This document shows, one piece after another, positions 6,873 to 32,281 of a stretch of DNA of 35,297 nt (within the stretch, counting starts at the first letter, position 1; each line of letters opens with the position of its first letter). A model generated the notes under the pieces. The model made no database searches, was not told the DNA's origin, and saw only the letters and a program-made list of their open reading frames with translations. The DNA is taken from the NCBI GenBank assembly GCA_947259335.1, contig CAMYMQ010000139.1, positions 1 to 35,297 of the forward strand, in the 5' to 3' direction. This DNA comes from an uncultured Alphaproteobacteria bacterium. GTDB taxonomy: Bacteria > Pseudomonadota > Alphaproteobacteria > Bin65. Both the position numbers and the translations under genes were made by a program.

Positions 6873-7640
6873 CTAGATGGCGAGATACTCGTGGCGCAGA
6901 TCGCTGTTGTCGAGCACTTCGCGGGCGCTGCCGTCGAAGACGATCTGGCCCATGTCCAGGATCACCGCCCGGGTGGCAAGTTCAAGCGCCGCGATCGCGT
7001 TCTGCTCGACGATGATCGTGGTGATGCCCAGTTCCTTGACGCTGAGCAGGATCCGCTCGATTTCCCGGACGATCGTCGGCGCCAGGCCTTCATAGGGCTC
7101 GTCGAGCAGCAGGAGCTTCACGTCCCGCGCAAGCGCCCGGGCCACGGCGAGCATCTGCTGTTCGCCGCCCGACAGCGTCACGCCCTCCTGCTTCCGGCGC
7201 TCGGCAAGACGCGGGAAATGGTCGTAGATCCGCTCGAGCGGCCAGCCGATCGGCTTGGTCACCTGGGCGAGGGTCAGATTCTCTTCCACGGTCAGGCCGG
7301 CAATGATCCGCCGGTCCTCGGGCACGAGCTGGATACCGGCCTGCGCGGCCTCGAAGGAGGCCATCGAATGGACGGCCTGGCCGTTCAGCCAGATCTCGCC
7401 CGACTGGAGCGCCGGCTGATCGGTTCGCGCGATGGTACGCAGGGTCGATGTCTTGCCGGCCCCGTTGCGGCCGAGCAGCGCCAGGATCTCGCTTTCGGCG
7501 ACGTCGAAGGAAATCCCCTGAACGATGTAGGACTGGCCGTAGTAGGCGTGGATATCGCGGACGCCGAAATAGGCCGTATCGGCGCGGGGCTCCTGCGCGG
7601 CGTCAAGCGCGGTCATGTCGGGCGGTGTCATGACGTTCAT
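6873..7640 (-). CDS. livF: Branched-chain amino acid-type ABC transporter ATP-binding protein (LivF-like)
   Basis: LLGRNGAGKTSTLRTI, LSGGEQQMLAVARAL, LLLLDEPYEGLAP; ATG at 7640 overlaps the livG stop (TGATG); the ORF-track start 7643 is a TTG. Confidence 0.92.
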   Translation of the reverse strand: MNVMTPPDMTALDAAQEPRADTAYFGVRDIHAYYGQSYIVQGISFDVAESEILALLGRNGAGKTSTLRTIARTDQPALQSGEIWLNGQAVHSMASFEAAQAGIQLVPEDRRIIAGLTVEENLTLAQVTKPIGWPLERIYDHFPRLAERRKQEGVTLSGGEQQMLAVARALARDVKLLLLDEPYEGLAPTIVREIERILLSVKELGITTIIVEQNAIAALELATRAVILDMGQIVFDGSAREVLDNSDLRHEYLAI

Positions 7641-8401
7641 CAATGGGTCCCTCCAAGATAGGCTTCCTGGACTTTCGGATTTCCTTTGATCTCATCGGGC
7701 GACCCCTCGGCGATAACCGTGCCCTGCGCCAACACGCTGATTCGGTGGGCGAGGGAAAACACGACATGCATATCATGCTCGATCACGATCTTGGTAATGC
7801 CCCGCTCGCCGATCTTCTTGAGCAGGTCGATCGTGTTGTTGGTGTCGGCGCGCGACATGCCCGCGGTCGGCTCGTCGAGCAGCAGCAGCCGGGGATCCTG
7901 GACCAGGCACATCGCCAGTTCCAGCCGCCGCTTGTCGCCGCGCGACAGCGTGCCGGCGATCGCATTCCTGGAGTCGGCGAGGCCGACATCCTCGAGCACA
8001 TGCTCCGCATGGTCGCGCACGTCGGTCTGCTTGCTCAGGCTCGGCAGGGCGTTGAGCTTGAACGCCCCGTCGCGGCGCGCGAAAGCCGGGATCATCACGT
8101 TGTCGACCAGCGTCAGGTCCTCGAAGATTTCCGGCGTCTGGAAGACCCGCGCCACGCCGGCCTGGTTGATCCGGTGCGGCGGCAGGCCGAGCAGCGGCTG
8201 GTCGCCGAACATGACGGTGCCCGTGTCCGGCTTCAGCCGGCCGACGAAGCAGTTGAGCAGCGTCGACTTGCCCGCCCCGTTGGGGCCGATGATCGCGTGG
8301 ACGGCGCCGGCGGTAACCTCGAGATTGACCTGATCGAGCGCCATCAGGCCGCCGAAGCTCTTGCTGACATCCTTGACGCTCAGGTTCGCCATCGCGTCCA
8401 C
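7640..8401 (-). CDS. livG: Branched-chain amino acid-type ABC transporter ATP-binding protein (LivG-like)
   Basis: IIGPNGAGKSTLLNCFVGRLKPDTGTV, LSRGDKRRLELAMCLVQDPRLLLLDEPTAGMS. Confidence 0.92.
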   Translation of the reverse strand: MDAMANLSVKDVSKSFGGLMALDQVNLEVTAGAVHAIIGPNGAGKSTLLNCFVGRLKPDTGTVMFGDQPLLGLPPHRINQAGVARVFQTPEIFEDLTLVDNVMIPAFARRDGAFKLNALPSLSKQTDVRDHAEHVLEDVGLADSRNAIAGTLSRGDKRRLELAMCLVQDPRLLLLDEPTAGMSRADTNNTIDLLKKIGERGITKIVIEHDMHVVFSLAHRISVLAQGTVIAEGSPDEIKGNPKVQEAYLGGTH

Positions 8402-8402
8402 C

Positions 8403-9557
8403 TTATTCCGCCGCTTGCGGCTGGGCGGCCGGCGACGCCGCCTTCCGCCGGTCCGGCCCGTTGCCGCCGGAGGTGAACAGCCGGCCGAGGCGCCGGAAGC
8501 CTTCCATCAGGCCGCCGGGCAGGAAGATCACGATCAGCATGAACACGACGCCCAGGGTCAGGTGCCAGCCCTCGCCGACGAACGGGCTGATCACGCCGAC
8601 GACGATGTCCTGGAGCCATTCCGGCAGGAACGAGAAGGCCTGGTTGAGGGCCTGCTGGTTGAAGGCCGAGAATATGTTCTCAAAATACTTGATGATGCCC
8701 GCGCCCAGAAACGGTCCGACCAGCGTGCCGGCGCCGCCCAGGATGGTCATGAGCACGACCTCGCCCGACGCCGTCCATTGCATCCGCTCGGCGCCGGCGA
8801 GGGGGTCGGTCGCCGCCAGCAGCGCCCCCGCCAGACCGGCATACATGCCCGAGATGACGAAGGCGGCGAGCGCGTAGGGCCGGGTGTTGAAGCCGGTGTA
8901 GGACATGCGGTTCTGGTTCGACTTGATTGCCTTGAGCATCATGCCGAAGGGCGACCGCATGATCCGCATGGCAAAGAAGAAGCCGATGATCAGCATCGCC
9001 GCGCAGAAATAGAAGCCGGAATAGCCGCTCATGCTGATGCCGAAGAGGTCGGTCACCAGGACGCCTTTCGCATCGACCCCCAGCATGCCGTCGATGACCC
9101 GCGGATCGGCGCGCAGCACGCGCAGGCCGGTCTCGCCGTTGGTGATCGGGGTGAGCACCGAATAGGCGAGGTTATAGGACATCTGGGCGAAGGCCAGGGT
9201 CAGGATCGAGAAGTAGATGCCCGACCGGCGCAGGCAGATGAAGCCGATGACCGCGGCGAACAGGCCCGCGACGACGATGCTGAGCATCACCGCCGGAATG
9301 ACGTTCAGCGACAGAAGCTTGAACGACCAGACCGCCGCGTAGGACCCAACCCCCAGGAAGGCGGCATGGCCGAACGAGAGATATCCGGTCAGCCCGAACA
9401 GGATGTTGAAGCCGATCGCGAAGATGCCGTAGATCGCGAACCGCTGGAGCAGATCCGGGTAGCCCGCTCCCAGCGGCTGGAGCCAGATCGGCATGGCCAG
9501 GACGACCACCGCGAAGATGGCGAGCACGACCAGGTCGTTGCGGAGGAATTTCGCCAT
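8403..9557 (-). CDS. livM: Branched-chain amino acid-type ABC transporter permease (LivM-like)
   Basis: Polytopic; [41 protein letters not shown] typical of LivM. Confidence 0.93.
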
Positions 9558-9559
9558 GA

Positions 9560-10576
9560 TCAGGTCTCCATCACGCCCTTGCGGCCGAGCAGGCCACGCG
9601 GGCGAACCAGCAGGATGATCACGGCGACCAGATAGATGATGATCTGGTCGATCCCCGGGAAGATCGATTTAACCTCGTTCATCGAGGCGAAGGACTGGAG
9701 GATGCCCAGCAGGAAGCCGGCCGCGACCGCGCCGGGCAGCGATCCCATGCCGCCGACGACGACCACCACGAAGGACAGAACCAGGAATTCCATGCCCATG
9801 TGATAGTCCGGCGGCAGGATCGGCGTGTACATCACGCCGGCAAGCCCGGCCACGACGGCGGCGAGGGCGAAGACGATGGTGAACCGCTTCTGGATGTTGA
9901 TGCCGAGCAGGCCCACCGTCTCGCGATCCTGCATGCCGGCGCGCACGACCATCCCCCAGGTGGTGAACCGCAGAAAGGAAAACACCGCGGCGAGGACGCT
10001 GAGCGAGAAGAGCAGATAGATCAGGCGCCACCAGGGATAGACGACGAACTGGCCGAGCCCCAGCCACTCGCCGATATTGGCGCTGCCGGAGACGAACTGC
10101 GGCGCGGGCGTCGGGATCGGGTTGGCGCCGAAGATCGCCTTGATGATTTCCTGCAGCACGATGGCGAGACCGAAGGTGACCAGGATCTGCTCCGCGTGCG
10201 GCCGCTTGTAGAAATGGCGGACCAGCCCCCGCTCCATCGCAAGCCCGATGAGGATCATCACCGGGATCGAGATCAGGATCGCCAGCGGCACGGCGAAGTC
10301 GATGATCGTCAGGCCGGTCTGGCCGAACCATTTTTCGAGATAGAAGACTTCCTTGGTGACCGGGAAGCCCAGGTCGCTCGGAACCTTGGTGACCTCCGCC
10401 AGGGTCAGCAGCTTCTTGAAGCTGACCGCGCAGAAGGCGCCCAGCATGAACAGCGCGCCATGCGCGAAATTCACGACGCCGAGCGTTCCGAAGATGAGCG
10501 TCAGCCCCAGGGCGATCAGCGCATAGGCGCCGCCCTTGTCGAGCCCGTTCAGAATCTGAAGGACGATGGCGTCCAC
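9560..10576 (-). CDS. livH: Branched-chain amino acid-type ABC transporter permease (LivH-like)
   Basis: [62 protein letters not shown]. Confidence 0.93.
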
Positions 10577-10618
10577 GGGTCTTGTGTCCTCCCCCCATCC
10601 GCTCCCCCTCCCCAGGAA

Positions 10619-10661
10619 GAGCAGAAAAGCGGGAGCCGACCGTCAGTCCGGCCGGCTCCCG
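10619..10661 (-). terminator. Intercistronic hairpin (attenuator or partial terminator) between binding-protein and livH genes
   Basis: Perfect 9-bp stem CGGGAGCCG (10630-10638) / CGGCTCCCG (10653-10661); on the minus strand followed by CTTTTCTG. Confidence 0.7.
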
Positions 10662-10674
10662 TCACCCAGTGTGA

Positions 10675-12018
10675 CTAGACCTTATACGGGCCGAGCTCGC
10701 CGCCAAAGATCTTCGGGTCGTACTCGACCTCGGACCGCGGCACTTCCTTGACGACCTCGAGAAGGTCGAACTTGCTGGTCGGCTTCTCGTTGCCTTTCAC
10801 GACCAGGACGCTCTTGAAGCACTGGTGATCGGCGGCGCGATACTCGGTCGGGCCATTGCCCATGCCGTCGAACTTGAAGCCTTCGAGCGCCTTGATGACT
10901 TCCGGAGGGTAGAAGGTGCCGGCCATCTCGCAGGCGTTGGCGTAAAGCAGCGTCTGCACGTAACAGGTATGAGCGGCCTGCGACGGCGGGAAGCCGTACT
11001 CCTGGCCGAAGGACTTCACGAAAGCCTTGGAGCCTTCGTCCTTGAGCGACCAGTTCCAGTTGGTCGTGCCAAGGATGCCCTTGATGTTCTTGCCCGCGCC
11101 CTGAGCCATCAGACGCGAATAGAGCGGCACGACGATCTCGAAGCTCTTGCCGTTGACCTGCTTGTCGCGCAGGCCGAACTGAACCGCCTGGGTCAAGGAA
11201 TTGACCATGTCCTTGCCGTAGTGGTTCAGGATCAGCACGTCGGCGCCGGAATTGAGAACCGGCGTGATGTACTGCGAGAAGTCGCCGGCGCCCAGCGGCG
11301 TGCGCACCGCCTTGACCGTCTTCCAGCCGAGCGCCTCGGTCGAGTTCTTGATCGACTCCTCCTGGGTCCAGCCCCAGGTGTAGTCGGCCGTGAGGTGATA
11401 GGCCTTGCGCTCGCCGCCCATGGTTTCCTTCAACACCGGCGCGAGCGCCTTGCCCGACATGTAGGCGTTGAAGAAGTGGCGGAAACCGTACCGGCGCTTG
11501 TCCTTGCCGGTGGTGTCGTTCGAATGGGTCAGGCCGCACATGAAGATGACGCCCATCTCCTGGGCCAGCGACTGGACCGCGATGGCGACGCCCGACGACG
11601 AGCCGCCGGAGAACATGATGACGCCGTCCTTCTCGATCATCCGCTTGGCCGAGGCCCGCGCGGCGTCCGATTTGGTCTGCGTATCGCCCGTCACATACTC
11701 GACCTTCTTGCCGAGCACGCCGTTGCCCTTGAGCGACTTCGGCTTCATCGTCGTCAGCAGGCCGCCGTCACCCTCGCCGTTGAGGTGCTTGACCGCCAGC
11801 TTGTAGGCGCGCAGCTCGTCGGCGCCCTCGTCTGCATACGCACCGGTCTGCGGCACGTTGAAGCCCAGCTTGATCGATTTCGCATTGCCGGGATCGTTCC
11901 GGAACTTCTCCGCCCAGGCCCGCCGGGAGAACACCAGAGGCGCCGTGCCGATCGCCGCGGCGGCAGCGCCGCCCTTCATCAGACCCCGACGGCTGACGCC
12001 GTCTTTGATACCGCTCAT
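10675..12018 (-). CDS. Periplasmic substrate-binding protein of Liv-type ABC transporter, Tat-type signal
   Basis: SRRGLMKGGAAAAAIGTAPLVFSRRAWA twin-arginine signal; KSIKLGFNVPQTGAYADEGADELRAYKLAVKHLN and downstream type I periplasmic-binding fold features. Confidence 0.9.
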   Translation of the reverse strand: MSGIKDGVSRRGLMKGGAAAAAIGTAPLVFSRRAWAEKFRNDPGNAKSIKLGFNVPQTGAYADEGADELRAYKLAVKHLNGEGDGGLLTTMKPKSLKGNGVLGKKVEYVTGDTQTKSDAARASAKRMIEKDGVIMFSGGSSSGVAIAVQSLAQEMGVIFMCGLTHSNDTTGKDKRRYGFRHFFNAYMSGKALAPVLKETMGGERKAYHLTADYTWGWTQEESIKNSTEALGWKTVKAVRTPLGAGDFSQYITPVLNSGADVLILNHYGKDMVNSLTQAVQFGLRDKQVNGKSFEIVVPLYSRLMAQGAGKNIKGILGTTNWNWSLKDEGSKAFVKSFGQEYGFPPSQAAHTCYVQTLLYANACEMAGTFYPPEVIKALEGFKFDGMGNGPTEYRAADHQCFKSVLVVKGNEKPTSKFDLLEVVKEVPRSEVEYDPKIFGGELGPYKV

Positions 12019-12136: not shown

Positions 12137-12177
12137 AAGTACTTGTATAAAAAGCATTTATTTGTAAATTTATAAGT
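12137..12177. promoter_or_regulatory. AT-rich divergent promoter/operator region
   Basis: Between divergent 12018(-) and 12247(+) genes. Palindrome AAGTACTT (12137-12144) and inverted half-sites ACTTgtATAAA (12141-12151) / TTTATAAGT (12169-12177) in an otherwise GC-rich window. Confidence 0.4.
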
Positions 12178-12246: not shown

Positions 12247-13827
12247 ATGGTACACGCACCGATCGGCTTCAAGATCCGAACGCGCCGCAAGGAACTCGGC
12301 TTTACGCAGGCCGCGCTGGCCAAGCAGGCCGGCATCTCGGCGTCGTATCTGAACCTGATCGAGGCGGACAAGCGGTCGGTCGGCGGGGGCCTGCTCCAAA
12401 CCATCGCCGGGCTCCTCGACGTCGAGTCGGACACGCTCACCGGACGGGCCGAGCGGCGCCTCATCGACAGCCTGCGCGAGGTCGCCGCGGAACCGATACT
12501 TCAACACTTGCGGCTGGATCCCGACGCGGCGATCGATCTGGTCGGCCGCCATCCCGAATGGGCCCGCGCGCTGCTCGCCCTTCATCGCGCCTTCCGCGAC
12601 AGTGTCCACACCACGGCGGCCCTGTCCGACCGGCTCAACCGCGATCCCTTCCTCGGCGAGACGGTCCACAAGATCCTGACCCACATCACGGCGATCCGCT
12701 CGGCCTCCGAAATCCTGGACGAAGGCGACACCCTCGCGCCGGAACAGCAACAGCGCTTCCACGGGATCATCTCGGGCGAGAGCGGCAAGCTCTCCGAGAC
12801 CGCCCAGGCGCTCGCCGCCTATTTCGACAGGGCCAATACGGAGACCCGGGCCCTGACGCCGACCGACGAGGTCGACGACTTCCTGATCGAGAGCGGCAAT
12901 CACTTTCCCCGGCTCGAGGACGCCGCCGACCGGTTGCGGCGGCAGCTCGACAAATACGGCGGCCTGAACCCGCAATCCTGCGCGGACTATCTGAAGGCGG
13001 AGCACGGGGTCACGACCCGCAGCGTTCTCCCCGCGCAAGCCGAGCTCGCACGATACCGCAACCAGAGCTGGTTCGACGCGGAGTCCCGGACGCTGTCCTT
13101 CCTCGAAAACATCAGCATGTCGACCCGGCGTTTCCAGATCGTCCGGCTCGCCGCCAGCTTCGCGCTGGAAGAGGCGATCGGCGCCGAGACCGAGACCGCG
13201 CAGCTGGTGTCCTCCGAGGCGCAGCTGCTCGCCAGGCGGGCGCTGAGCTCCTATTGCGCCAGCGCCGTCATTTTTCCCTATGACACCTTCCTCGAGACCG
13301 CCGTCGCCCTGCGCTACGATACCGACATCCTGCGCCAGCGGTTCGACGCCAGCTTCGAACAGGTCTGTCACCGCCTCGCGACACTGCGCCGGCCGGGCGG
13401 CGAGGGCCTGCCCTTCGCCTTCATGCGGGCCGATCCGGCCGGATACATCACCAAGCGCTACCCCCTGCCCCAGCTCGCCCTGCCGGCGCACGGCCACGGC
13501 TGCCCGCTATGGGCGATCTACCAGTCCTTCCAGACGCCGAACCGGATCATCCGGCAGCTCGCCGAGTTTCCCGACGGCAGCCGCTATATCCTGATCGCCC
13601 GGGCGGAAACCAAGCGGCCGGGCGCCTTTCACGAGCCGCCGGTCCAGCGGTCGGTGATGCTCGCCTTCGACGCGCTGCACGCCGACAGCACTGTCTACGG
13701 CGACGGCCTCGACGTCCGTGCGGCCACGCTCGCGACCCCGGTCGGCCCCGCCTGCCGGCTGTGCGTACGCACCCGTTGTCAGCACCGCAGTGACGAGCCG
13801 ATCGTCGAAAGTCTTGGCAAAAGATAA
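12247..13827 (+). CDS. XRE-family regulator with degenerate IrrE-like segment and ScfR/DUF2083-like C-terminus, plus internal HisKA-like segment
   Basis: N-terminal HTH (IGFKIRTRRKELGFTQAALAKQAGISASYLNLIEADKRSVGGGLLQTIAGLLDV); C-terminal GEGLPFAFMRADPAGYITKRYP...HGCPLWAIYQSFQTPNRIIRQLAEFPDGSRYILIARAE...CRLCVRTRCQHRSDEPI typical of short-chain acyl-CoA regulators (RamB/ScfR type). ATG 12247 preferred over TTG 12244. Confidence 0.88.
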   Translation: MVHAPIGFKIRTRRKELGFTQAALAKQAGISASYLNLIEADKRSVGGGLLQTIAGLLDVESDTLTGRAERRLIDSLREVAAEPILQHLRLDPDAAIDLVGRHPEWARALLALHRAFRDSVHTTAALSDRLNRDPFLGETVHKILTHITAIRSASEILDEGDTLAPEQQQRFHGIISGESGKLSETAQALAAYFDRANTETRALTPTDEVDDFLIESGNHFPRLEDAADRLRRQLDKYGGLNPQSCADYLKAEHGVTTRSVLPAQAELARYRNQSWFDAESRTLSFLENISMSTRRFQIVRLAASFALEEAIGAETETAQLVSSEAQLLARRALSSYCASAVIFPYDTFLETAVALRYDTDILRQRFDASFEQVCHRLATLRRPGGEGLPFAFMRADPAGYITKRYPLPQLALPAHGHGCPLWAIYQSFQTPNRIIRQLAEFPDGSRYILIARAETKRPGAFHEPPVQRSVMLAFDALHADSTVYGDGLDVRAATLATPVGPACRLCVRTRCQHRSDEPIVESLGKR

Positions 13828-13917
13828 AAAATAGACGTTATCGTGGCGCTGCCACCGATGATTGCCGTGGCGCGCGGCCCTGCCTGGGAGAAGGGGGGCG
13901 AAAGGGGAGTAGCGGAC

Positions 13918-14289
13918 GTGTCTGCGCGCATCTTGATCGCCGAGGACGAACCGCACATCGTCGAGTCGCTGAGCTTCATCCTGACGCAGGCGGGCTGCAC
14001 GGTGTCGGTCGTGTATGACGGCGCCGCCGCCATCGAGGCGATGCAGGCGCGGCCCCTGCCCGACGTGCTCATCCTCGACGTGATGCTGCCGAAGCGGAAC
14101 GGCTTCGAGGTGCTCAAGTGGGTCAAGTCCGAACCCGGCCTGAAGGATGTCCCCGTCATGGTGCTCACCGCCAAGGGACAGCAACAGGACCGAGAGACGG
14201 CCGAAGGCTTGGGCGTGGACGCCTTCATCACCAAGCCGTTCGCCAACCGCGACATCGTCGCCTGCGTCAAACGCCTGGCCGACGCGTGA
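13918..14289 (+). CDS. Single-domain response regulator (REC only)
   Basis: ARILIAEDEPHIVESLSF, LPDVLILDVMLPKRNGFEVL, VPVMVLTAKG, DAFITKPF: acidic pair, phospho-Asp, Thr and Lys all present. Likely GTG start at 13918; no output domain. Confidence 0.9.
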   Translation: MSARILIAEDEPHIVESLSFILTQAGCTVSVVYDGAAAIEAMQARPLPDVLILDVMLPKRNGFEVLKWVKSEPGLKDVPVMVLTAKGQQQDRETAEGLGVDAFITKPFANRDIVACVKRLADA

Positions 14290-14305: not shown

Positions 14306-14554
14306 ATGCCCAACCGACAACGCACCCGCGACGCCGCCCTTGTCCTGCCGATCCTCGGCGCCTTTCTGCTGATCTCGCCCGCGGCGTCGGTGTTCAATTC
14401 GACATCGACCGTGTTGGGCCTGCCGGTCGTCGTGCTCTACGTCTTCGGCGTCTGGCTCGGACTGATCCTGGCGGCGCTCGGCCTGGCGCGGCGGCTGGCG
14501 GCGGACGACGACCGCCCCCTGGTGGCCGAACCGCTTGACGAGACCGACGACTGA
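14306..14554 (+). CDS. Small two-helix membrane protein preceding the symporter-kinase
   Basis: MPNRQRTRDAALVLPILGAFLLISPAASVFNSTSTVLGLPVVVLYVFGVWLGLILAALGLARRLAADD: two hydrophobic helices; stop overlaps next start (TGATG 14552-14556), implying translational coupling. Confidence 0.75.
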   Translation: MPNRQRTRDAALVLPILGAFLLISPAASVFNSTSTVLGLPVVVLYVFGVWLGLILAALGLARRLAADDDRPLVAEPLDETDD

Positions 14555-17274
14555 TGTTGTCGACCAACGTCGTCCTGGTCACCTCGCTGGTCTATGTCGC
14601 GCTGCTGTTCCTGATCGCCTTCGTGAGCGATGCCCGCGCCCGGCGCGGCAGGGCCGGCTTCACCGCCTCGCCCATCGTCTACACGCTCTCGATCTCCGTC
14701 TACTGCACGTCGTGGACCTTCTACGGTGCGGTCGGCTCGGCGGCGCGCAACGGCCTCGAGTTCGCCACCATCTACCTCGGGCCGACATTGGTCTTTGTCG
14801 GCTGGTGGTTCCTGCTGCGCAAGCTGGTGCGCATCGGCCGGGTCCACCGGATCACGTCGATCGCCGACCTGATTTCGTCCCGCTACGGCAAGAGCACCAC
14901 GCTCGGCGTGCTGGTCACGATCATCGCGCTGGTCAGCACCACGCCCTACTTCGCCCTCCAGTTGAAGGCGGTAACCACCAGCTTCGAGGTGGTAAGCCGG
15001 GCGGCGGGCGTGACGTCGTCGGTCGACTTCGACACCGACACCGCATTTTGGGTCGCGGCGGCGATGGCCCTTTTCACGATCCTGTTCGGCACCCGCAACA
15101 TCGACGCCAACGAACGCAACCACGGTGTCGTCGCCGCCATCGCCTTCGAGGCGCTGGTCAAGCTGATCGCCCTGATCGCGGTCGGCCTGTTCGTCGTCTT
15201 TGGCGTCGGTGACGGGCTGCCCGACCTCTTCTCCCGGGCGACGACCCAGGAGGTCCTGAAGGTCGAGGACACGTTCGGGCCGCGCTGGATCGCGCTCACC
15301 GTCCTGTCGGCCTGCGCCATCTTCTGCCTGCCCCGCCAGTTCCAGATCACGGTCGTGGAAAATTCCGACGAACGGCACCTGCGGACCGCATCCTGGATGT
15401 TCCCGCTCTACCTTTTCCTGATCAGCCTGTTCATCCTCCCGATCGCGATCGGTGGGCTGGCCGCACTGCCGGCGGGGTCGAACCCCGACATGTTCGTGCT
15501 AACCCTCCCGATGGCGCACGGACAGGACGGGCTGGCGCTGTTCGCCTTCATCGGCGGCTTTTCGTCGGCCACGTCGATGGTGATCGTCGCGACCATCGCC
15601 CTGTCGATCATGGTCTCCAACCATATCGTGATGCCGATCTCGCTCCGCCTGCCCCGGGCCCGGCGCAGCGAAGGGGGCGACGTCAAGAAGCTGCTGCTCG
15701 TCAGCCGGCGCATCAGCATCGCCGTGACGCTGCTTCTCGGTTACCTCTATTTCCGTCTCAGCTCGAAGTCGGAAGCGCTCGCGTCTATCGGGCTGATCGC
15801 CTTTTCCGGCGTCGCCCAGTTCGTGCCCTCGATCCTGGGCGGCCTCTATTGGCGGCAGGCAACCGCCCGCGGGGCGATCGTCGGCATGACGGCGGGCTCG
15901 GCGGTGTGGGCCTATACCCTGGTCGTGCCGAGCTTCGCCGGGAGTACCGGCGCGCTGGCCGATTTCGTCGCCAACGGCCCCTGGGGCATCGTGCTGTTGC
16001 GGCCCCAGGCCTTGTTTGGTCTCGATGGATACGATCCGCTCGTCCATTCGCTCTTCTGGAGCCTCACCGTCAACACGGCGCTCTTCATTCTCGTGTCGCT
16101 GAGCCGGGATGCGCGGCCGCTCGAAAGGTTGCAGGGGGCCCTGTTCGTCGATGTCTTCCGCTACCCGGTCGGCAACGAATCCCGGGCCCTGCCCCGCTCG
16201 GCCCGGATCGATGACCTCTATGTCCTCGCCCGGCGGATCATGGGCGAGGCCGAAGCCCGACGCCTGTTCGACGATTTCGCCCGCCAGCAGGGCATGAGCG
16301 CCGGACCACCCCGCCCGGACGCGGACTTCATCGTGCGGCTGGAGCGCGAACTGGCAGGAAGCATCGGCGCGGCGACCGCGCACGCCATGGTCTCCCAGGT
16401 CGCGACCGGCGAGACCATCAGTCTCGACGAGGTCATCAAGATCGTCGACGAAACCCAGCAGGTGATCGAACACAGCCACCAGCTCGAGCAAAAATCCAAG
16501 GAATTGCAGATCACCGCCGCGCAACTGCGCGAAGCGAACGAACGGCTCAAGCAGCTTGATGCGCAGAAGAACGACTTCCTGAGCCAGGTCAGCCACGAAG
16601 TACGCACACCGATGACCTCGATCCGGTCCTTCGCGGAGATCCTTCTGGAGACGCCGGACCTGAAGAGCGAACAGGCGCGCCGGTTCCTGACCATTGTCCA
16701 GGAAGAGAGCCTGCGCCTGACCCGCCTGCTCGACGAGATCCTGGACCTCAGCCACCTCGAAAGCGGCCAGTTGAAGATCGAGATGGTGCCGATCGACGCC
16801 GAAACGGCCCTGGACCGCGCCCTGGAAACCTGCAGGGGCATGGCCAACCGGGTCAAGGTCGACCTGCTCGACGGGAAACGCGAGTCCACCGCGATCGTCA
16901 ACGCCGATTCCGACCGGCTGCGTCAGGTCTTCATCAACCTGCTGACCAACGCGATCAAGTACAACACCAACGACCGGCCGACGGTCTCCGTCCGCACCAG
17001 GATCGAGAACGGCCGCTACAACGCCTTCATCGAGGACAATGGCCCGGGCATCGACGCACAGGATACCGAAACGATCTTCTCCAAATTCTCCCGCGGATGG
17101 GAGCGAACCGCGCGCCGGGCCGGCGGCGCGGGCCTCGGCCTCGCCATCAGTCGCCAGATCATCCGCAACCTCAACGGCGAGCTCGAACTCGTCCAGACAG
17201 GGGATGGCGGAGCCTGTTTCCGGGTCTCCCTGCCGCTGGCCTCGCCAGCCGCCCGCGTCGGACCCGGCACCTAG
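14554..17274 (+). CDS. Sodium:solute symporter-histidine kinase fusion (CbrA/CrbS-type sensor kinase)
   Basis: SSS-type N-terminal half (YTLSISVYCTSWTFYGAVGSAARNG...); HisKA FLSQVSHEVRTPMTSIRSFAEIL; N box DRLRQVFINLLTNAIKYN; IEDNGPGID; GAGLGLAISRQIIRNLNG. Confidence 0.94.
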   Translation: MLSTNVVLVTSLVYVALLFLIAFVSDARARRGRAGFTASPIVYTLSISVYCTSWTFYGAVGSAARNGLEFATIYLGPTLVFVGWWFLLRKLVRIGRVHRITSIADLISSRYGKSTTLGVLVTIIALVSTTPYFALQLKAVTTSFEVVSRAAGVTSSVDFDTDTAFWVAAAMALFTILFGTRNIDANERNHGVVAAIAFEALVKLIALIAVGLFVVFGVGDGLPDLFSRATTQEVLKVEDTFGPRWIALTVLSACAIFCLPRQFQITVVENSDERHLRTASWMFPLYLFLISLFILPIAIGGLAALPAGSNPDMFVLTLPMAHGQDGLALFAFIGGFSSATSMVIVATIALSIMVSNHIVMPISLRLPRARRSEGGDVKKLLLVSRRISIAVTLLLGYLYFRLSSKSEALASIGLIAFSGVAQFVPSILGGLYWRQATARGAIVGMTAGSAVWAYTLVVPSFAGSTGALADFVANGPWGIVLLRPQALFGLDGYDPLVHSLFWSLTVNTALFILVSLSRDARPLERLQGALFVDVFRYPVGNESRALPRSARIDDLYVLARRIMGEAEARRLFDDFARQQGMSAGPPRPDADFIVRLERELAGSIGAATAHAMVSQVATGETISLDEVIKIVDETQQVIEHSHQLEQKSKELQITAAQLREANERLKQLDAQKNDFLSQVSHEVRTPMTSIRSFAEILLETPDLKSEQARRFLTIVQEESLRLTRLLDEILDLSHLESGQLKIEMVPIDAETALDRALETCRGMANRVKVDLLDGKRESTAIVNADSDRLRQVFINLLTNAIKYNTNDRPTVSVRTRIENGRYNAFIEDNGPGIDAQDTETIFSKFSRGWERTARRAGGAGLGLAISRQIIRNLNGELELVQTGDGGACFRVSLPLASPAARVGPGT

Positions 17275-30334: not shown

Positions 30335-32281
30335 GTGCGCGCCGCACTCGCCCGCCTATTCTATGCCACAGGAGAAGGCAACCGCCTGACGCCGGGCGGC
30401 GCCGTCGACCTTGTCCTCAAGGCCGCGGCGGTCGCCCTGTCGATCTACATCGGCTGGTACGCCTTCTATGGGGTCACCAACGAGCACCTGCACGGCGCGG
30501 TGTTCCTGCTGGTGATGCTGCCGGTCATCTTCCTGACCACGACCGTGTCGCGGGCGGTCCACCGGATCACCCTCCTCGACTACGCGCTCGCCGCCGCCTC
30601 GGTCGCCGTGTGTGTCTACTACATCGCCAACGACAGCTTCTACCGGACGCTGATCGAGGGGGTGACGCCGATCCCCGAGCGCGAGATCGTCGTCGGCATC
30701 GTGACCCTCCTGCTCTCGATCGAAGCCTGCCGCCGCTCGGTCGGCTGGGGGCTGACGAGCGTGCTCCTGATCCTGCTGGCCTATGTCTTCTTCGGCCATT
30801 TCCTTTCCGGCGAGCTGCATCACGACCCGATCCGGATCGACTATTTCGTGCAGCTTCAGACGGTTCTCAGCGTCGACGGCATCTTCGGCACGCCGCTCGA
30901 GGTCGCCGCGACCTATGCCTTCCTCTTTGTGCTCTTCGGCAGCTTCTATCAGCGGGCCGGGGGCGGCGTGTTCTTCTTCGAGCTCGCGACCGCGCTGTGC
31001 GGCCGCGCCGTCGGCGGCCCCGCGAAAGCCTGCGTCGTTTCAAGCGCGCTCTACGGCTCGATCTCCGGCAGCCCGACCGCCGACGTGGTCACGACCGGTC
31101 CGATCACCATCCCGCTGATGACACGCACCGGGATCAGCGCCAAACGCGCGGCGGCAATCGAGGCGGCGGCGTCGAGCGGCGGCGCCCTGCTGCCGCCGGT
31201 CATGGGCACCGTGGCCTTCCTGATGGTGGGCTTCACCGGGATCGCCTACGAGGCGATCGTCAAGGCCGGCGCCCTTGTGGCCATCCTCTACTATTTCGGC
31301 GTCTTCATGGCGGTCCACGCCGAGGCCAAGCGCGGTGGACAGGGGCAGATCGAAGAAAGCCAACTCGTCGGCCTCGTCGCCGCGTTGCGCCGGGGCTGGC
31401 GCCAGATGCTGCCGATCGTCGCCCTGCTCTACTTCCTGGTCGAGGGCTACACCCCGACCTACGTCGCCGCGGGGTCGACCCTGTTCGTGGTCATCCTGAG
31501 CTGGCTGAACAAGGAGGCCGACTTCCGCATCGGCCCGCGCGCCTTTGTCGAGGCCTGTATGGAAACGGTCACCCGCATGTCGGCCCTGACCGGCGCGGTG
31601 CTCGCCGCGGGCGCAATCATCGGCGCTGTCGAAATGACCGGCATGCCCGGCAAGTTCACGCTCATGGTCAACTTCGTGTCGGCCGGGAACATCGTCCTGG
31701 TCCTGGCCGCGACCGCCTTCGTCGTCATCTTGCTGGGCATGGGAACGCCGGCGACGTCGTCCTACATCATGGGGGTCGCCCTGCTGGCGCCGGTGCTGAT
31801 GGTCAACTTCAAGGTGCCGCTGCTGCAGACCCACATGTTCCTGCTCTACTACTCCTGCATGTCCGCGATCACCCCGCCGCTCGCGACAGCCTGCTTCGCC
31901 GCGGCCGCCATCGCGCGGGTCAATCCGATTTCGATCGCGATGTATGCGGTGAAGGTCGGTTTCGCAGGCTTCGTCCTGCCCTTCTTCTTCGTCTTCAACC
32001 CGGGCCTGCTGCTGGTCGGCTCCGCGATGGACATTGCCGTCGCGATTGTCGCGGCCATCAGCCTGGTCCTTGCCGCCCTGACGGGCATCCTCGGCTGGAT
32101 CGGCGGCATTCGCCTGATCCTGCCGGTCCGGCTCGCCTATGTCGCCATGGCGGCCGGCCTGATCTATCCGCTTCCGTGGCTGCAACTCGTCCTCGCAGCC
32201 ATCGTCGCCGGCAGCTACATCGTCGTTTCCCGGTCGCCTCAGATCGGCCGCGCCTTGAGGTTGAGCCGCCATGACGCGTGA
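30335..32281 (+). CDS. TRAP transporter fused (4TM/12TM) permease
   Basis: Polytopic; VSSALYGSISGSPTADVVTTGPITIPLMTRTGISAKRAAAIEAAASSGGALLPPVMGTVAFLM is the TAXI-TRAP DctM signature. GTG start. Confidence 0.95.
   Translation: MRAALARLFYATGEGNRLTPGGAVDLVLKAAAVALSIYIGWYAFYGVTNEHLHGAVFLLVMLPVIFLTTTVSRAVHRITLLDYALAAASVAVCVYYIANDSFYRTLIEGVTPIPEREIVVGIVTLLLSIEACRRSVGWGLTSVLLILLAYVFFGHFLSGELHHDPIRIDYFVQLQTVLSVDGIFGTPLEVAATYAFLFVLFGSFYQRAGGGVFFFELATALCGRAVGGPAKACVVSSALYGSISGSPTADVVTTGPITIPLMTRTGISAKRAAAIEAAASSGGALLPPVMGTVAFLMVGFTGIAYEAIVKAGALVAILYYFGVFMAVHAEAKRGGQGQIEESQLVGLVAALRRGWRQMLPIVALLYFLVEGYTPTYVAAGSTLFVVILSWLNKEADFRIGPRAFVEACMETVTRMSALTGAVLAAGAIIGAVEMTGMPGKFTLMVNFVSAGNIVLVLAATAFVVILLGMGTPATSSYIMGVALLAPVLMVNFKVPLLQTHMFLLYYSCMSAITPPLATACFAAAAIARVNPISIAMYAVKVGFAGFVLPFFFVFNPGLLLVGSAMDIAVAIVAAISLVLAALTGILGWIGGIRLILPVRLAYVAMAAGLIYPLPWLQLVLAAIVAGSYIVVSRSPQIGRALRLSRHDA

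Follow-up and report, generated by a model that had tools for sequence, protein, structure and literature searches.

An ScfR-family transcription factor of alphaproteobacteria carries a DHp-type segment akin to that of its linked symporter-histidine kinase

In one clade of ScfR-family transcription factors, the linker between the helix-turn-helix (HTH) domain and the ScfR core is occupied by a DHp-type segment that shares common descent with the DHp of a symporter-histidine kinase, is confined in the sampled alphaproteobacteria to genomes that also carry this kinase, retains the phospho-acceptor His in nearly all kinase-linked copies, and evolves in step with the DHp of the linked kinase. A response regulator consisting of a REC domain only is encoded between the two genes, and the three proteins probably form a unit in which the symporter-kinase and the lone REC act on the ScfR factor through its acquired DHp. 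The arrangement was analysed in a window of 35,297 nucleotides (the whole stretch of DNA, contig CAMYMQ010000139.1 of an uncultured Alphaproteobacteria bacterium, assembly GCA_947259335.1) and in homologous loci, in which ScfR homologues with an additional stretch of about 65 residues separating HTH from core (form A, 52 loci) were compared with those lacking it (form B, 32 loci).

The locus and its ScfR factor

The genes and sites of the window on which the analysis centres are the following.

12247..13827, plus strand: XRE-DHp-ScfR transcription factor, 526 aa (open reading frame and translation; Pfam HTH_3 and ScfRs; NCBIfam RamB)
12274..12435, plus strand: HTH_3 DNA-binding domain of the factor (PF01381, 46.4 bits)
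12649..12828, plus strand: DHp/HisKA-like insert (BLASTP, Pfam, shuffles, profile; predicted helices 134-159 and 165-196)
12667..12669, plus strand: His141 codon, equivalent of the phospho-acceptor His (alignment; kept in 61/62 kinase-linked homologues)
12823..13809, plus strand: ScfR core, residues 193-521, a PrpR-like acyl-CoA-binding/[4Fe4S] region (RamB match, Foldseek, cysteines)
13843..14289, plus strand: single-domain response regulator, REC only, start codon uncertain (Response_reg E=8e-27)
14077-14079, plus strand: acceptor Asp codon of the REC gene
14306..14554, plus strand: small membrane ORF, 82 aa, start inferred, no Pfam family
14554..17274, plus strand: symporter (SSS/SLC5-like)-histidine kinase, 906 aa (HisKA and HATPase_c)
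16594-16596, plus strand: His681 codon of the symporter-kinase gene

The C-terminal domain of the factor is assigned to ScfRs (PF09856, E=4.5e-44) by Pfam, which also reports an IrrE-like region beside HTH_3, ScfRs and a weak HisKA match, and the NCBIfam RamB model matches residues 193-521 at a score below the RamB cut-off. The full-length predicted model matches PrpR (6cyy) in Foldseek with E=1.6e-24, and the cysteines equivalent to those of the cluster, C419, C503, C506 and C511, with the C-X2-C-X4-C spacing of PrpR, are kept in 73/75 insert-bearing homologues. By these matches the regulator is an ScfR family member of PrpR/RamB-like type which, by analogy, probably senses acetyl-CoA-like metabolites. 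It has in common with PrpR, RamB and PccR the HTH, the DIII/GAF-like acyl-CoA and [4Fe4S] core with equivalent cysteines, and TTTGCAAA-like boxes upstream. The linker DII of PrpR, residues 81-152, is invisible in the PrpR crystal structure (PMC6765138), and it is at the place of DII that the present factor differs, its linker being occupied by the DHp domain.

The lone response regulator contains no detectable HTH and thus is not a LuxR-family regulator of the CrbS/CrbR type; the active-site residues are intact in 66/66 loci with a REC, while at one further locus (L061) factor and kinase are present and no REC was detected nearby. The small membrane ORF between the REC and kinase genes was absent from the first-pass annotation. 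The N-terminal part of the symporter-kinase matches PDB entry 10ed, 'histidine kinase', with E=9e-72.

A DHp-type segment in the linker

The first-pass annotation had picked out a segment of the factor at residues ~136-195, aligned without gaps to the HisKA region of the kinase with about 21/57 identities and with the phospho-acceptor His at codon 12667-12669, in a protein without HATPase domain and with a REC-only response regulator encoded between factor and kinase. These observations proved sound. The segment 12649-12828 is in frame and comprises residues 135-194 when counted from the ATG at 12247, BLASTP aligns residues 131-183 of the factor with 671-723 of the linked kinase, gapless, with 21/53 identical (E=3e-7), the codon named is that of His141, and Pfam identifies the REC-only regulator and finds no HATPase domain in the factor, which does not qualify as a histidine kinase.

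Several lines identify the segment. The local alignment of factor and kinase scores 89, whereas 2000 shuffles average 24 (SD 4.6) and reach 45 at most. Pfam HisKA matches residues 135-183 with E=0.0064 for the full protein and 0.00098 for the segment, below the gathering cut-off in this single protein, while HisKA is recognised at E<=1 in 36/43 of the homologous segments, the best at 4.8e-11. The profile of the insert family matches HK853 DHp structures over the whole DHp with E about 2e-6. Single-chain AlphaFold2 prediction yields the DHp-like hairpin that had been sought, two helices with the His in helix 1 (segment pLDDT 81), and a Foldseek search with the segment model returns HK853-RR468 complexes as best matches with probability 1.0, although E is only about 0.1, the fold being short and helical. 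Chance similarity is ruled out by shuffles, profile, fold and phylogeny, and the insert is a true DHp-type segment by profile, fold and phylogeny. It does not follow the canonical H-E-x-R-T-P box, which is found in 42/42 tabulated kinases; the factor of the window reads H-K-I-L-T-H. Matches of the segment profile to Protein A were set aside, since they arose by summing over repeats that singly reach i-Evalues no better than about 10.

Origin and distribution of the insert

The kinship proposed with the neighbouring kinase holds at the level of the lineage. When a family profile built without the window sequence was run against 30 HisKA domains of the window's genome, the linked kinase scored 62.6 bits and the next domain 25.7; a generic HisKA likeness unrelated to the neighbour is thereby ruled out, no other domain coming close to the linked kinase. 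The 75 inserts cluster on a single branch (SH-aLRT 100) of a tree of 170 short DHp sequences; this branch joins the DHps of this kinase family rather than the remaining HisKA domains of the genome, its finer placement being unsure because the alignment has only 67 columns. When the insert is left out of the tree building, the insert-bearing ScfR cores are likewise set apart from the others by a single branch (support 93). On the evidence of these trees the insert form is one clade in alphaproteobacteria, and the simplest reading is a single capture of the DHp, with an ancestor of this kinase lineage as the source.

Occurrence of the insert is strictly tied to the kinase. Within the fetched stretches the kinase was found at 42/52 form A loci vs 0/32 form B loci. 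A whole-genome search of 15 genomes behind form A loci (ten loci without local kinase, three later such loci, one with a distant kinase, and the REC-less locus) found it in 15/15. In a sample of 388 alphaproteobacterial genomes (kinase called when full-length with a family score above 750 bits; Fisher test) the kinase was present in 64, and 53 of these 64 carry the insert form, leaving 11 kinase-carrying genomes without it. Every insert-bearing genome (53/53) has the kinase, and the insert is missing from all 324 genomes lacking the kinase; equal occurrence of the insert in kinase-free genomes, which would have spoken against a link to the kinase, was thus cleanly contradicted. One of the loci, L023, is that of Thalassobaculum litoreum, an alphaproteobacterium amenable to laboratory work.

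In a phylum-wide sample, the strongest matches outside the class sat in frames of kinase length, and no XRE factor of the form A kind was present in the 14 out-of-class loci fetched. Kinases of this family do occur at these loci (L184-L192, L195, L197-L200), often with a lone REC nearby.

Retention of His141 and its surroundings

HisKA proteins need the acidic residue at H+1 for kinase activity and Thr/Asn at H+4 for phosphatase activity (PMC3510030). Among the kinase-linked copies of the insert, the His is kept in 61/62, T/S/N(+4) in 62/62 and I(+15) in 62/62, as against R(+3) in 2/62, Pro(+5) in 0/62 and Glu at H+1 in 20/62, the last mostly in one family. R(+10), S(+11) and I(+15) are conserved in the insert and common to the kinase. 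This pattern fits a DHp that would still meet a REC at the His while no longer needing a catalytic domain. It also bears on the notion that the DHp drains REC~P as a phosphate sink or phosphatase, tuning the kinase pathway with phosphorylation having no effect on DNA binding. Thr/Ser/Asn at H+4 in all linked copies would suit such a role, given the requirement for Thr/Asn there in HisKA proteins (PMC3510030); however, the locus gives no evidence of a separate output for the lone REC, and a sink would hardly be expected on a DNA-binding protein that senses metabolites; this role is very improbable.

The His is absent in 8/75 copies, replaced by F, Y or Q with the DHp domain retained. Five of these come from one family, with the kinase about 9-11 kb away, a sixth copy sits close to these in the DHp tree, and the remaining two belong to a different genus and have the kinase on a separate contig; by parsimony the loss represents two changes, and the genomes of both lineages still have the kinase. 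These natural His-less variants are at loci L050, L052, L053, L055, L102, L106, L117 and L118. The conservation expected of the His in linked copies was borne out, the residue being kept in 61/61 operon-linked copies vs 6/14 others, a split in which the copy 11 kb from its kinase was counted as not linked. The corresponding Fisher value (61/0 vs 6/8, p=2e-7) is not a clean test, because it counts related genomes, and an independent-pairs test of His loss against linkage has only 2 informative pairs.

Persistence of the domain with F, Y or Q for His in two lineages is what would be expected if the DHp were a platform for REC or REC~P without phosphotransfer, the REC being a co-regulator and the His serving for binding only, and conservation of the residues that the insert has in common with the kinase at +10, +11 and +15 would agree. 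Against this, linked copies have held on to the His despite change at the nearby Arg(+3) and Pro(+5), which points to a chemical role of the His; docking of this kind has a minor though appreciable likelihood.

Matched evolution of insert and kinase

With row and column means removed and one copy per family (22-24 families), the insert shows excess similarity to its own linked-kinase DHp at matching positions, with a residual of 7.6-8.3 and p of at most 0.005 in a first run and 0.002 in a second (residual 7.9-8.3). Segments evolving independently since the capture would be expected to show no such preference for their own partner over other kinases. Alignment shifts of 1-12 positions give residuals of at most about 3 in size; the DHp segments of factor and kinase thus evolve in a position-matched manner, and compositional convergence was rejected as the cause, the shifted alignments being without comparable signal. 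The matching could be explained by a shared partner (the REC), by direct pairing of kinase and factor, or by sequence exchange or gene conversion.

In direct pairing the DHps of factor and kinase would form a mixed bundle, by which the factor would be held at the membrane or phosphorylated without the REC. The DHp is a dimerisation domain, and the inserts stem from the kinase lineage and have tracked the linked kinase in their evolution; yet the kinase-invariant H-box residues Arg+3 and Pro+5 are lost in the factor, and a REC with intact active site is conserved in the loci, so that direct pairing appears rather improbable.

A possible route for the signal

ChpT and Spo0B carry a His-bearing DHp without kinase function and act as partners of REC proteins. 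The factor shares such a DHp with them, but whereas ChpT and Spo0B are separate proteins that hand phosphate to a REC output, here the DHp lies inside a DNA-binding protein. In the three-protein unit favoured here, the signal of the kinase would reach the factor via the lone REC as go-between. The REC would dock on the factor's DHp as on that of the kinase, and REC~P would most likely exchange phosphate with His141, in an Asp-to-His step like that onto ChpT or Spo0B; alternatively, docking itself rather than transfer might join the symporter-kinase signal to acyl-CoA sensing. Phosphorylation of His141 may act jointly with bound acyl-CoA to change how the factor oligomerises or binds DNA. It is tentatively proposed that the relay ends on a His inside the transcription factor, REC~P passing phosphate to the captured DHp, so that kinase and acyl-CoA/[4Fe4S] signals would be integrated in one DNA-binding protein. 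On the comparative sequence data, the relay, docking without transfer and direct pairing may each be accommodated and are not separated.

Candidate targets and operator boxes

Upstream of the factor gene lies a divergent ABC operon of five genes (window 6873-12018, minus strand: substrate-binding protein, two permeases, two ATPases), separated from it by a region with a candidate operator.

12161..12168, plus strand: TTTGTAAA, candidate ScfR-type operator in the divergent promoter region (box search)
10675..12018, minus strand: ABC transporter substrate-binding protein, divergent, likely target (Peripla_BP_6 E=4e-72)
9560..10576, minus strand: ABC permease (BPD_transp_2, Pfam family; in 46/52 form A loci)
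8403..9557, minus strand: ABC permease (BPD_transp_2, Pfam family)
7640..8401, minus strand: ABC ATPase (LivG-like, family match)
6873..7643, minus strand: ABC ATPase (LivF-like, family match)

The substrate-binding protein family is found at 47/52 form A loci vs 0/32 form B loci; the divergent transporter is a conserved companion of insert-bearing regulators and is missing near those without insert. TTTGYAAA occurs upstream of 40/52 form A and 19/32 form B regulator genes, against 2.5 and 1.0 in shuffles; within the single window, TTTGCAAA has 4 matches against 4 expected. The boxes resemble the PrpR/RamB sites TTTGC(A/G)AA (PMC6765138). The output of the system would be the divergent ABC transporter and the factor's own operon, controlled through the candidate TTTGYAAA boxes. 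An acetyl-CoA synthetase family is encoded near 7 form A and 4 form B loci, a hint of acetate metabolism, one such gene (L117, 14592-16523) lying near a His-less insert-bearing locus. A DctM-type TRAP transporter component is encoded elsewhere in the window (30335-32281, plus strand).

Relation to known systems and significance

CrbS/CrbR, RpuS/RpuR and other SLC5/STAC systems have the symporter-fused histidine kinase in common with the locus. In those described in two papers the kinase is paired with LuxR-family regulators (PMC9100948, PMC7918813), CrbR and RpuR being LuxR-family response regulators and two Sinorhizobium fredii kinases being hybrids (PMC9100948). Here, in contrast to CrbS/CrbR and RpuS/RpuR, the REC is lone and the presumed output is an ScfR factor with a DHp of its own. 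In the ScfR network of Paracoccus denitrificans, one gene, Pden_1785 or Pden_2985, is described as clustering with a two-component system; the kinship with the present factor is that of the ScfR network, and the comparison covers the neighbourhood as given in that description, which mentions no DHp segment (PMC10370305). No DHp-bearing ScfR or XRE factor was found in a literature search of partial coverage; the domains and the signalling logic are known, and what appears new within that coverage is their combination.

The retention of the arrangement by many alphaproteobacteria suggests that the kinase signal is passed to the factor via a go-between REC. A lone REC would thereby gain an output route, since a copy of the domain on which it would dock in the kinase is also present in the DNA-binding partner. 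The proposal lends itself to direct testing through the conserved His, the natural variants without His and the paralogues without insert. If it is true, a phospho-signal and direct metabolite sensing would be coupled in one protein in many alphaproteobacterial families.
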